53,341 bases of DNA from an uncultured Bacteroidota bacterium (GTDB lineage: Bacteria > Bacteroidota > Bacteroidia > Flavobacteriales > Flavobacteriaceae), in contig CABXGL010000008.1 of assembly GCA_902511755.1 (NCBI GenBank), forward strand, positions 1-53,341, read 5' to 3'. Below the pieces are notes generated by a model. It ran no database searches. It saw only the letters and a program-made list of their open reading frames with translations, and was not told the DNA's origin. The number at the start of each line of letters is the position of its first letter. The stretch's first letter is position 1. A program made the translations under genes and the position numbers. Shown here in pieces: positions 35,398-53,341 of the stretch.

Positions 35398-35742
35398 TTA
35401 TAATATTTTTAAGGATTCTTCAGGTGGATTAGCGATTATCGCTTTGTTTTTAGAAACAAAAATGGGTCTTTGCATTAGTTTAGGATTTTCAAATATAGCT
35501 TGAATAATTTGACTTTTTGATAAAGATTTATTTTTAAAAGATTCTTTCCATACTATTTCTTGTTTTCTTATAAAATCAATTGGATTTAGATCTGATTTAT
35601 CAATAATTTCCTCAATTTGGTTTTTATCTAATAGATCTGATAAATATAAAATAGTTTCAAACTCAATTTTTTTAGTTTTCAAAAATTCCATTCCCTCTCT
35701 AGATTTTCTACATCTCGGATTGTGTAATAATTTATATTTCAT
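35398..35742 (-). CDS. ArsC/Spx-family thioredoxin-fold reductase
   Basis: 114 aa. The N-terminus LLHNPRCRKSREGMEFL carries the single active-site cysteine of glutaredoxin-linked arsenate reductases (Cys12, NPRCRKS), and QRPIFVSKNKAII matches the later RPI motif. Length fits ArsC of Bacteroidota. No arsenite pump or ArsR regulator is nearby, so arsenic resistance is not assured; relatives such as YffB have other thiol roles. It lies 7 bp after prfB and is probably co-transcribed with it. Confidence 0.82.
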   Translation of the reverse strand: MKYKLLHNPRCRKSREGMEFLKTKKIEFETILYLSDLLDKNQIEEIIDKSDLNPIDFIRKQEIVWKESFKNKSLSKSQIIQAIFENPKLMQRPIFVSKNKAIIANPPEESLKIL

Positions 35743-35749
35743 TTATAAG

Positions 35750-36830
35750 TTAATTAGCCATCAAAAATGCTTTTAGAAATGGATTTAACCCTCCATTCAA
35801 AACATTATCAATATCATTAGTCTCATACCCAGTTCTAACATCCTTTATTAGTTTATATGGATGCAGAACATAGTTTCTTATTTGAGAACCCCATTCAATT
35901 TTCATTTTACTAGCTTCAATTTTTTCTCTTTCTTTCATTTTTTCTTTTAATTCTATTTCATAAAGTTGAGATTTTAAAAGTTGAAGTGCCTTTTCCTTAT
36001 TTTCAAGTTGAGATCTTGTTTCGGAATTTTCAATAATTATTCCTGATGGTGCATGTCTAAGTCTTACAGCAGTTTCAATTTTATTTACACTTTGACCTCC
36101 AGCACCACTTGATCTCATAGTTTCCCATGAAATATCAGATGGATTTATATTAATTTCAATTGAATCATCAACTAGTGGATAAACATAAACTGATGCAAAT
36201 GATGTATGTCTTTTTGCATTACTATCAAAAGGAGATATTCTCACAAGTCTATGCACTCCATTTTCCCCTTTTAACCATCCAAAACCATGAGTGCCATCAA
36301 TTTCTAATGTGACAGATTTAATTCCAGCTACATCTCCTTGTTGTAAATCTAATTCTTTGACTTTATAATTATTTTTTTCAGCCCACATAATATACATTCT
36401 CATAAGCATATTTGCCCAATCACAACTTTCTGTTCCACCAGCACCAGCAGTTATTTGGATTACTGCACTCATTTCATCACCTTCATTTGACAACATATTT
36501 TTAAATTCTACTGATTCTATATGGTCGTTACATTTTTTAAAGTGGGAAGTCAATTCAATTTCTGAAATTTCATTTGATTTAAAATATTCAAACAATACTT
36601 CTAAATCTTCACATAATAAACTAGCCTTATCATAATCTTTAACCCATTGCTTTAATGATTGAAGTTCTTTCATTAATTTTTGAGCTTTTTTAGAATCATT
36701 CCAGAATTCAGGATCTAAAGTAATCTCCTCTTTATTAGAAATTTCTATTTTTTTTGAGTCTATGTCAAAGATAACTCCTTAGCGCTTTAGTACGCTTAAG
36801 GAGATTCTTAATTTGGTCTATAGTTATCAT
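35750..36830 (-). CDS. prfB: Peptide chain release factor 2, with programmed +1 frameshift
   Basis: Release factor that recognises UGA and UAA. Translation from the ATG at 36830-36828 reads 21 codons (MITIDQIKNLLKRTKALRSYL) and meets an in-frame TGA at 36765-36767. Shifting +1 at CTT-TGA-C continues as DIDSKKIEISN into the long frame, giving 359 aa in all. The codon-recognition motif SPF (RISPFDSNAKRH) and catalytic GGQ (SSGAGGQSVNK) are present. Taking the ATG at 36673 as the start would drop the frameshift and 52 residues. This is the classic autoregulation: low RF2 slows termination at the UGA and favours the shift. Confidence 0.95.
36765..36803 (-). promoter_or_regulatory. prfB recoding site and overlapping hairpin
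   Basis: On the mRNA strand an SD-like AGGAG (36779-36775) sits just upstream of the slip codon CTT and stop TGA-C (36770-36764), with the spacing seen in E. coli (AGG-NNN-TAT-CTT-TGA-C). The stimulator is also the 3' arm of a hairpin: 5' CTCCTTAAGCG (36803-36793), 8-base loop, CGCTAAGGAG (36784-36775), ten pairs with one bulged A. The 5' arm resembles the 16S anti-Shine-Dalgarno sequence. Confidence 0.8.
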
Positions 36831-36921: not shown

Positions 36922-39321
36922 ATGCTTAATAGATTTTTCACTTTTTTGACTTGTTTTTTCTTTCTAGGGATTATTGCTCAAGACACAAATCAAAACAAAA
37001 TAAATTATCAGGGCTTTTTTAATTTTACTTATGAAGAAAAGTCTGATAAGATTTTTTTATATGTAGATAAGTTAAATTATGATTTTTTATATATTAATTC
37101 ATTAGCTACAGGAATAGGTTCAAATGATATAGGCTTAGATCGAGGTCAGTTAGGTAGTGAGAGAATTGTTAGGTTCAAAAAGTATGGAAATAAGTTACTT
37201 TTAATTCAACCTAATCAATCTTATAAAGCCATCTCAAAAAATAATGCTGAAAAAAATAGTGTTAAACAAGCTTTTGCATTTTCTGTGATTTATGGATTTG
37301 AAATTATAGAATCAAAATCAGGAATTTATAAAATTGATTTTACTCCTTTTTTATTGCAAGATAAACATGGAGTAATTAATAGATTAAAAAACCTTAATCA
37401 AGGTGCATATAAATTAGATTTAACTAAAAGTGCCTTAGAATTGACAAGAACCAAAGCCTTTCCTGAAAATGTTGAGTTTGAAGCATTGTTAACTTTTATA
37501 GGTGAATCTAATGCAAGATTAATTTCAAGTGTATCTCCAGATCCATCGATTATTAGTGTTATACAGCATCATTCATTTATAAAACTTCCTGATAGAAATT
37601 ATAAACCAAGAAAGTTTGACTCTAGAAGTGGAGCTATTATGACTTCTTTTATGGATTATGCCACTCCAGTTCAAGATCAAATAAGTCAAAAGATGATTAC
37701 TAGACATCGTCTAGAAAAGACAAATCCAAATTTAGAATATAGTGATGCAATTAAACCAATAATATATTATTTAGATCCAGGAACTCCAGAACCAATTAGG
37801 TCTGCTTTAATAGAAGGAGCTAGTTGGTGGAATGAAGCTTTTGAAGAAATAGGATTTAAAAATGCTTTTCAAGTTAAGCTCTTACCTAAAGATGCTGACC
37901 CAATGGACTGTAGATACAATGTTATTCAATGGGTTCATAGGTCTTCTAGGGGTTGGAGTTATGGAGCTAATGTGTCTGATCCAAGAACAGGTGAAATTAT
38001 TAAGGGACATGTTAGTTTAGGAAGTTTAAGAATAAGACAAGATTTTTTAATAGCACAAGCTTTAATTAATAAACCTTATGAAAATGATGATAATTATAAA
38101 CCTATGTTAGAAATGGCTTTATCAAGAATAAAACAACTAAGTGCTCATGAAGTTGGACATACCTTAGGCTTTACACATAATTTTGCATCTAGTGCTAATA
38201 AAAGAGCTTCTGTAATGGATTATCCTCATCCATTAATAAAATTAAATGAAGATAAGATTGATTTGTCGAATGCTTATTCAGTTGGAATAGGGGAGTGGGA
38301 TAAAGTGAGTGTCGCTTACAGCTATTCTCAATTTAACCAAGATGATGAAAATGAAGAATTACAGGATATTTTAAAAAGTGCAAGTCAAAAAGGATTAAGA
38401 TTTATTACTGACAAAGATGCCAGAGCCCAGGATGGGTCCCATATATATGCTCATTTGTGGGATAATGGGCAGGATATAGTTGAAGGTTTAGATCAAATTT
38501 TTAAAATAAGAGAAAATGCCATATCAAATTTTTCTGAATTAAATATTAAAAGTGGACAACCTTATTCTTATTTAGAGGATGTTTTTGTTCCATTATATTT
38601 CATGCATCGATATCAAACTGAAGCTGTAGTAAAGTTGATTGGTGGAATGGATTACAATTATGCAACTAGAGGGGACGGTCAGATAATTGTGGAAGATCTT
38701 GATCTTGAAATTCAAAATAGAGCTTTAGTTTCTGTCTTTCAATCTATGGACGCTCAAAATCTAGCAATACCAAGACGTATTTTAAAGCTATTTCCACCTA
38801 GAGCGTATGGATTTCCAAGAACAAGAGAATCATTTAAGGGGAAAACTGGAATTTCTTTTGACCCATTTAGCGCCGCCTCAACAGCAAGTGAAATGACTAT
38901 TTCATTATTGTTAAATCCAAAGAGATTAAATAGAATTATGATTCAAAACTCTATAGATAATTCTAAGATGAGTTTAAGATATCTTCTAAATGGATTAATA
39001 TCAAATTCCTTTAAGAAAACATATGAAGATTCTTATATAAGTGAAGTTCAACATTTAATTAATACAAATATTTTAATTTATTTATTAAATATAACTGAAG
39101 ATGAAGAAGCATTTATGCAAGTTAAACACGAAGCTAAAATGGCAGTTAAATATTTACAAGGATTAATTACAAAATCAAAAAAAATACATGCTTATTATGA
39201 TCAATATTCTTATATAATTGAGGATTTTAAGAATAGACCAGAGTTATATAAAAAACAAAGATCATCTAAAATACCTGATGGCTCTCCAATTGGAAGTGAA
39301 TCGTGCAATTATAATTTGTAA
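36922..39321 (+). CDS. Secreted zinc-dependent metalloprotease (DUF4953/DUF5117 type)
   Basis: 799 aa. Signal peptide about residues 1-19 (LTCFFFLGIIAQ), then a beta-rich DUF5117-like region. The catalytic core has the metzincin-like motif HEVGHTLGFTH with His409, Glu410, His413 and His419. A methionine in SVMDYPHP about 15 residues later fits a Met-turn. The C-terminal DUF4953-type region (GMDYNYATRGDGQ onward) is helical. Such proteases are common in Bacteroidota and probably act in the periplasm or outside the cell. No C-terminal type IX secretion tail is evident. Substrate unknown. Confidence 0.88.
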   Translation: MLNRFFTFLTCFFFLGIIAQDTNQNKINYQGFFNFTYEEKSDKIFLYVDKLNYDFLYINSLATGIGSNDIGLDRGQLGSERIVRFKKYGNKLLLIQPNQSYKAISKNNAEKNSVKQAFAFSVIYGFEIIESKSGIYKIDFTPFLLQDKHGVINRLKNLNQGAYKLDLTKSALELTRTKAFPENVEFEALLTFIGESNARLISSVSPDPSIISVIQHHSFIKLPDRNYKPRKFDSRSGAIMTSFMDYATPVQDQISQKMITRHRLEKTNPNLEYSDAIKPIIYYLDPGTPEPIRSALIEGASWWNEAFEEIGFKNAFQVKLLPKDADPMDCRYNVIQWVHRSSRGWSYGANVSDPRTGEIIKGHVSLGSLRIRQDFLIAQALINKPYENDDNYKPMLEMALSRIKQLSAHEVGHTLGFTHNFASSANKRASVMDYPHPLIKLNEDKIDLSNAYSVGIGEWDKVSVAYSYSQFNQDDENEELQDILKSASQKGLRFITDKDARAQDGSHIYAHLWDNGQDIVEGLDQIFKIRENAISNFSELNIKSGQPYSYLEDVFVPLYFMHRYQTEAVVKLIGGMDYNYATRGDGQIIVEDLDLEIQNRALVSVFQSMDAQNLAIPRRILKLFPPRAYGFPRTRESFKGKTGISFDPFSAASTASEMTISLLLNPKRLNRIMIQNSIDNSKMSLRYLLNGLISNSFKKTYEDSYISEVQHLINTNILIYLLNITEDEEAFMQVKHEAKMAVKYLQGLITKSKKIHAYYDQYSYIIEDFKNRPELYKKQRSSKIPDGSPIGSESCNYNL

Positions 39322-52654: not shown

Positions 52655-52658
52655 CTAT

Positions 52659-52942
52659 GCAGGCCACCTTATCGCTTTTGTTTTTCAAAAGAGGAAAGTC
52701 CGGACACCATAGAGCATTATAGCGGGTAACGCCCGTCACTATGAAAATAGAGGACTAGTGCAACAGAAAGAATATACAGTTAGGCTGTAGTGAAATCAGG
52801 TAAACTCTATAAGGTGAAACGTCACGTAGACCAACTTTTAAGAATTGCTCGTTCGATGTTGGAGGGTGGGCGGTTTGAACAAAATAGTAATATTTTGTCT
52901 AGATAAATGATAAGGCACGACAGAATCCGGCTTATGGCCTGC
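52659..52942 (+). ncRNA. rnpB: RNase P RNA
   Basis: Catalytic RNA of RNase P, which matures tRNA 5' ends. Helix P1 is closed by GCAGGCCA (52659-52666) and TGGCCTGC (52935-52942). The near-universal core element GAGGAAAGTCCGG is at 52691-52703 and the 3' partner ACAGAATCCGG at 52920-52930. Length (about 284 nt) is short compared with E. coli but plausible for a reduced type A RNA. The P1 3' strand runs straight into TTTTT, which can act as the terminator. It is divergent from dnaX. Confidence 0.95.
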
Positions 52943-52945
52943 TTT

Positions 52946-53341
52946 TTATTTTAAATAGCTAATGCTATTTGGTCCTTGGTTAAATACAAGGTCTAAAATG
53001 CTTAAGTTATTTTTAAAGCCATGTTTTGGAGAAAAAACCTGTATATATTCCTTAACAATGAATTTATCATCAAATTTTTTTTCAGCCATGTCTCTAAGAT
53101 CAATTTCATTATTATATTTTTCTTTGAATTTTTTTGTAAAACTTAATTTATTATTAATATCTAACCATTCATATACAAGTTTAATACACTCAATATTGAA
53201 AACTGAAAGTTTATTATAATGATTGAAATATAAATTTTTTAATCCATCTTCATAAAATTCAAAAAAAGGTGAAGACTTATATGCTGATTGAATTGATTTC
53301 CAATGGTCTTTTTGCCATTGAAAATCATTTTTAATAATAGC
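52946..53341 (-). CDS. WbqC family protein, 5'-truncated
   Basis: The last 131 codons of a minus-strand gene that starts beyond the window. The readable part begins NDFQWQKDHWKSIQSAYKSSPFFEFYED, a signature I associate with the WbqC-like family of Bacteroidota, and ends QGPNSISYLK. WbqC proteins were first noted in polysaccharide clusters, but the biochemical role is unclear. A plus-strand ORF over the same bases is a shadow. Its stop is 3 bp from the 3' end of rnpB, tail to tail. Confidence 0.82.
   Translation of the reverse strand, partial: AIIKNDFQWQKDHWKSIQSAYKSSPFFEFYEDGLKNLYFNHYNKLSVFNIECIKLVYEWLDINNKLSFTKKFKEKYNNEIDLRDMAEKKFDDKFIVKEYIQVFSPKHGFKNNLSILDLVFNQGPNSISYLK

Follow-up and report, generated by a model that had tools for sequence, protein, structure and literature searches.

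The window analyzed here, a stretch of 53,341 nucleotides of DNA from an uncultured member of the Flavobacteriaceae, carries prfB on its reverse strand. ORF0 of the gene has 21 codons (MITIDQIKNLLKRTKALRSYL, followed by the stop; 36765 to 36830) and ends at an in-frame TGA that forms part of the +1 slippery site CTT-TGA-C (36764 to 36770, with CTT at 36770-36768, TGA at 36767-36765, and C at 36764). The frame that continues in +1 (35750 to 36766) is the body of RF2, matching TIGR00020 with an E value of 1.7e-143 and above the family cut-off. The locus has the features of prfB +1 frameshifting, CTT followed by an in-frame TGA and then C, with an RF2 body in the +1 frame, and the original prediction of such a site with AGGAG upstream is borne out. 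The neighbors of prfB are an ArsC-family protein on the reverse strand (35398 to 35742) and a Met-zincin protein (DUF4953/DUF5117) on the forward strand (36922 to 39321).

The stretch just before the slip site folds into a hairpin, all parts of which lie on the reverse strand. The 5' arm, CTCCTTA(A)GCGT with one bulged A (36792 to 36803), is joined by the six-base loop ACTAAA (36786 to 36791) to the 3' arm GCGCTAAGGAG (36775 to 36785), as read from the fold and the pairing probabilities. Positions 36803-36797 and 36795-36792 pair with 36785-36775, giving 11 pairs, ten Watson-Crick and one U-G; the ten-pair hairpin foreseen in the original prediction was right, and the minimum free energy (MFE) fold adds the U-G pair. 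Its description of the 5' arm as an anti-SD mimic was also accurate, since CUCCUU copies the 16S anti-SD, and CTC CTT is conserved in the genus. The 3' arm holds the SD-like AGGAG (36775 to 36779), a five-base core in AGGAGT whose next base is T and not G, so that the final G of the common AGGAGG is missing from this prfB; the canonical element is AGGGGG or AGGAGG 3 nt upstream of CTT. Counting from the C of CTT, with 36771 as -1, the stem runs from -33 to -5 (CUCCUUA, the bulged A, GCGU, the loop ACUAAA, GCGC, and UAAGGAG). Its start lies 27 nt downstream of the A of the prfB ATG and its end four bases from CTT, so that a stable stem sits a short distance 5' of the E-site codon. Its MFE is -14.4 kcal/mol with a z score of -3.9 (none of 200 dinucleotide shuffles was as stable), or -3.2 when it is folded in a 121-nt context, and each base of AAGGAG is paired with a probability of 0.98 to 1.0 in the window fold. 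In an Rfam search of the whole window at the gathering score, the hairpin matched no described family. The sole match in that search was RNase P RNA (RF00010) at 52656 to 52949 on the forward strand.

Unusual codons in the hairpin had been taken to suggest selection on the nucleotides, and both parts of that claim held up. The codons are indeed rare in the window, where among open reading frames of at least 200 codons CTC makes up 1.2% of Leu codons, CGN 6.6% of Arg codons, and GCG 2.2% of Ala codons. We drew synonymous codons according to window usage, leaving the protein unchanged and the three codons that precede CTT untouched. Recoded window sequences had a mean of -1.5 versus the observed -14.5, and none of 300 draws was as stable; every one of the 21 readable sites of the genus likewise beat its recoded versions, each with a p value of at most 0.01. 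The genus sites had a mean MFE of -12.4, whereas 60 further windows taken from these genes averaged -2.2 and reached -5.7 at the lowest. The arm codon is CTC in 19 of 20 genus genes with distinct proteins, versus 2.3% of the Leu codons there, and the encoded peptide, LLxRTxxLRSYL, is largely conserved.

RF2 was present in all 22 genomes of the genus, which we take to be marine and to correspond to GTDB MAG-121220-bin8, and 21 prfB starts were readable, L023 being dropped because its contig begins inside the gene. The hairpin exists in all 21, with 11 pairs in 13 sites, ten in 7, and nine in one. The original prediction had proposed aligning relatives and looking for compensatory changes, and these are present: among the 19 distinct rows, 20 cells were doubly changed versus 5.9 after shuffling (0/500), and 95.7% of cells were paired versus 89.3%, while structures slid along the alignment paired at most 46%. 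Double changes occurred at -29/-9, -25/-12, and -22/-15; the pair -24/-13 was broken in 5 of the 19 rows. Arms swapped between members of the genus folded worse (0/400 as stable), although the arm-swap z of at least one of 60 control windows was no higher than that of the genus site (-3.98 versus -3.84). In a test that took the RF2 tree into account, the three doubly changing pairs gave p values of 0.04, 0.065 to 0.19, and 0.13, with few events, and in sign tests on supported branches there were too few events to reach 0.05 and, on average, no pair pointed in the opposite direction. One member, L022, has TTGGAG in place of AAGGAG and CTCCAT in place of CTCCTT, so that the 5' arm compensates one of the two SD changes, while the other produces a U-U mismatch. 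Searching 299 family genomes with a covariance model of the genus sites gave matches in 70 at an E value of at most 0.01; the sample included three genus members, which scored 72 to 77 bits, as expected for the source of the model, and the best outsider scored 46. The hairpin is thus conserved across the genus and covaries, with tree support there that is modest, and it is a real, selected structure in which the stem, and not the sequence as such, is under selection.

Sites from the wider family were taken from a sample in which RF2 was found in 154 of 159 genomes; most genomes with an open frame of at least 362 amino acids, suggesting no frameshift, and a few genomes at the end of the list were left out. 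A site was present in 205 of the 220 loci tried (15 had none); 176 of the sites were distinct, and the SD is strong in 120 of these and weak or absent in 56. For the SD-bearing relatives we used a set, A3, of 71 of the 103 distinct sites; the 32 omitted were those whose first copy had been picked by the hairpin model, an omission that also removes identical sites of the unbiased sample. Rows with model-picked loci remain among the SD-bearing sites in the control-window arm-swap and branch sign tests. SD-bearing Flavobacteriaceae share the upper stem of the genus, with at least four of the five pairs -26 to -22/-15 to -11 in 70 of the 71 A3 sites (55/56 in a narrower count, and 80/81 when model-picked loci are included). 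The full genus stem is paired in 74.5% of cells in SD-bearing sites, with no excess of double changes, and the covariation score was reached by 1 of 500 shuffles. The arm codon is CTY in 36 of 38 Leu codons in full genes of SD-bearing relatives (33% in the gene body) and in 49 of 57 in A3, versus 31 of 42 in SD-less sites (32% in the body), a contrast with a p value of 0.027 without the model-picked loci and of 0.0001 with them (61/63). Among the individual loci, the first frame of prfB in L083 and L095 lacks an ATG at the usual place and perhaps starts at TTG, and in L174 (G108:C25) the hairpin model matches at two places separated by about 3.3 kb, with a single RF2 match close by, which may reflect a duplication or a second site.

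Because the upper stem is shared in this way, the genus may have extended an older stem, one lying before the SD, down through the SD, and the controls on this point are mixed. In 43 of 55 distinct sites from other Bacteroidia families the last paired base was -11, a position partly set by the folded region (-36 to -10), which stops at -10. Arm swaps among these sites gave a z of -6.2 (n = 55) but of -1.1 when restricted to the 18 rows for which full genes were available, and 17 of the 55 had a p value of at most 0.05 in synonymous recoding. The idea of such a stem across the whole class, with its end right before the SD, is a lead only.

Most sites with a weak SD or none read AGGCAC, AGGCAA, AGACAN, and similar (AGGCAN/AGACAN). 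The genus stem is not formed in SD-less sites, where 32.6% of its cells are paired. These sites have instead a second, shorter stem in which -23 to -19 pairs with -10 to -6, as GCCUU/AAGGC, GCCUA/UAGGC, GUCUA/UAGAC, GUCUC/GAGAC, and GCUUA/UAAGC, so that the stem edge lies at -6 here and at -5 in the genus. All five pairs occur in 29 of 55 aligned SD-weak sites versus none of 71 SD-bearing sites, a contrast that is partly by construction, since the C at -6 that closes the stem also disrupts the SD. Covariation does not share this origin in the same columns: SD-weak sites had 26 doubly changed cells versus 13.1 after shuffling (0/500), and SD-bearing sites had no excess (2 versus 1.1, reached in 142 of 500). 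The arm-swap z was -8.4 for the C-A sites, 42 distinct SD-less sites with these bases at -6 and -5, and did not fall below -2.4 in any of 60 control windows. Changes fell on the same branch at -22/-7 (6 of 7 changes on the 3' side) and at -19/-10 (6.5 of 12), with p values of 0.003, the floor of the test, and of 0.003 to 0.009, versus 0.49 to 1 for eight control column pairs. The five pairs are complete in 28 of the 42 C-A sites, four are present in 10, and fewer in 4; L200, L221, and L257 among them, and also the prfB site L258, have neither an SD nor the short stem. On a quick single-protein tree the C-A state changes 8 times, which leaves the number of its origins uncertain. Loss of the anti-SD is not supported as the reason for loss of the SD in this clade, as CCUCC was present in all 5 of the 16S ends read (G034, G088, G141, G145, and G153) and the rpsU SD was retained in 14 of 15 genomes.

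In the lineage of the window, pairing to 16S rRNA itself looks weakened. In 20 of the 21 genus sites the prfB SD is missing its final G, while a GGAG or GGGG core is retained in all 21, and the predicted SD:anti-SD duplex has an energy of -7.7 with CCUCC and -5.0 with CCUCU, versus -12.5 for AAGGAGG. The 16S rRNA of the window genome ends in GGAACACCUCUUUUCU and thus has the anti-SD CCUCU and not CCUCC, in one copy from one draft genome (G000:C7:15033-16560; L001 3015-3030). This 16S is about 98% identical to those of three relatives in the genus, all of which read CCUCC; with these 3 of 4 readable ends, a genus-wide loss of the anti-SD is not supported. The occurrence of GGAACACC for GGATCACC was dismissed as a special change, since it is present in every 16S end read. 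The rpsU gene, which in Flavobacteriales is reported to be alone among ribosomal genes in having an SD (PMC8710568), points the same way. An S21 match was found in 15 of 22 genus genomes, and the SD is absent from all 14 copies whose start could be found (L149-L163, with L161 dropped), the best duplex being -2.5, so that autoregulation of bS21 by SD pairing may have been lost in the genus. Elsewhere in the family, all 15 of the SD-bearing genomes examined and 14 of the 15 SD-less ones retain the extended rpsU SD (-16.8 to -20.9). Two or three S21 matches occur in 20 of 30 Flavobacteriaceae genomes searched (L435-L477), and the paralogues read were of an MLKII/MIKI type without an SD and an MLIIP type with the extended SD.

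The stem is probably a frameshift stimulator. Our confidence is slightly above even that it works as a cis duplex that promotes +1 slippage by re-forming behind a ribosome that has stalled at UGA. A translating ribosome would open the stem; when RF2 is scarce, it would stall with CUU and UGA in the P and A sites, respectively, and the stem would re-form behind it, the edge of the stem lying one base upstream of the codon in the E site. The re-formed stem, whose 5' arm would be an anti-SD in cis, may then act like the SD:anti-SD duplex of E. coli, pulling or chocking the mRNA and helping the E-site tRNA to leave, so that the peptidyl-tRNA-Leu would slip from CUU to UUU. Against this stand the few events behind the tree support in the genus, the control window that matches the arm-swap z there, the broken pair -24/-13, the half compensation in L022, the stemless L200, L221, and L257, the single 16S copy behind CCUCU, and, among published hairpins, the restriction of H1 to reactions without RF2 and the sensitivity of -1 attenuation to spacing. 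Because the SD is only weakened, with its core retained in 21/21 sites, the hairpin could still assist SD:anti-SD pairing or compete with it, and conservation of the AAGGAG bases could be due to the SD alone.

The original prediction had proposed that the hairpin hides the stimulator. In this reading the SD, still acting through pairing with the anti-SD, is concealed from the 30S subunit or from the anti-SD of the elongating ribosome, which would damp frameshifting or false internal initiation. Such masking agrees with the SD being fully paired in the window (mean of 0.99 over 20 genus sites), with a cis stem of about -14 versus -5 to -8 kcal/mol for the anti-SD, and with the CTY arm codon of SD-bearing relatives (36/38), which could pair with the SD. 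We nevertheless consider it unlikely. The hairpin is not confined to sites with an SD: the SD-less clade retains a covarying stem in about the same place, in another register, with no SD to hide. The preference for CTY persists in SD-less sites (31/42) and is therefore not tied to the SD alone. These sites, together with the partial compensation in L022, are why we favor the duplex as stimulator over concealment of the SD. Another possibility is that the rare CTC, CGN, and TCG/GCG codons slow or space ribosomes and that pairing is a by-product; the rarity of these codons in the window and the long pausing reported at the F. johnsoniae site by McNutt 2021 (PMC8710568) fit this, but bases covary between the arms, and the arm swaps within the genus keep the arm codons yet fold worse (with a control window matching their z), making this account quite improbable. 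We give equally little credence to an element for mRNA stability or initiation with no tie to frameshifting, for although the stem starts near the initiation region, stems of differing register both sit close upstream of the slip site (-5 in the genus and -6 in the SD-less clade). Chance, or protein constraint and base composition without any RNA function, is very improbable despite the conserved peptide and is already contradicted by the shuffles, by the synonymous recoding beaten in 21/21 sites, and by covariation that lies mostly at synonymous sites.

If the stem is a stimulator, an mRNA hairpin may have taken over from the rRNA-mRNA duplex in RF2 autoregulation at least twice in Flavobacteriaceae, in the genus through cis-anti-SD zipping as SD:anti-SD pairing decays and in the SD-less clade through the short stem. 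We hold this view tentatively, at somewhat less than an even chance. Were it true, the stimulator would be wholly encoded in the mRNA in ribosomes whose anti-SD is sequestered.

The prfB hairpin is a new variant of the prfB frameshift signal. As in E. coli and F. johnsoniae, the site consists of ORF0, CTT-TGA-C, the RF2 body, and SD-like purines upstream; unlike theirs, its SD is one base shorter and lies within an 11-pair stem with an anti-SD-like arm. The prfB leader of E. coli K-12 (L478) also has a two-part stem, with CCUC opposite the GGGG of its SD and an MFE of -12.2, but its recoding p value, from a run in which model-picked SD-bearing loci remain, was 0.085 and not significant, unlike those of the genus. 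The extended SD of rpsU and its autoregulation by bS21 (PMC9976891) are similar in being the other SD-dependent case in Flavobacteriales, and differ in that this SD is gone from the readable genomes of the genus. A survey of 12,753 genomes reported hyper-conservation of the prfB SD (PMC12421855), and the terms "hairpin" and "secondary structure" are absent from its main text; SD-less sites with a stem would qualify the claim of almost universal conservation. No natural prfB hairpin or SD-less prfB site appeared in the titles and abstract openings searched, and Naeem et al. 2024, a study of F. johnsoniae prfB that Prince 2025 cites for low frameshifting in that species, may describe upstream elements.

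The closest parallels to the proposed duplex are 6BPGC (Cho 2013, PMC3639245) and H1 (Huang 2018, PMC6321510), stems just upstream of a slip site that are thought to refold behind the ribosome. H1 is reported to give about 60% of the +1 stimulation of an SD at CUUUGA with 70S ribosomes in vitro, an effect seen only without RF2 (Huang 2018, PMC6321510). A hairpin also stimulated +1 shifting in yeast (PMC3639245), and attenuation of -1 shifting was halved when the spacing was widened from 2 to 5 nt (Cho 2013, PMC3639245); the spacing here is 4. Both 6BPGC and H1 are designed or adapted reporter constructs, whereas the stem described here is natural in prfB, is conserved, and contains the SD. It would be a natural prfB case of an effect that we encountered in reporter constructs only. 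McNutt 2021 left open how Bacteroidia carry out prfB frameshifting with a sequestered anti-SD and suggested unknown cis elements or factors (PMC8710568). A conserved stem that swallows the SD, together with sites that have a stem and no SD, makes that question testable.
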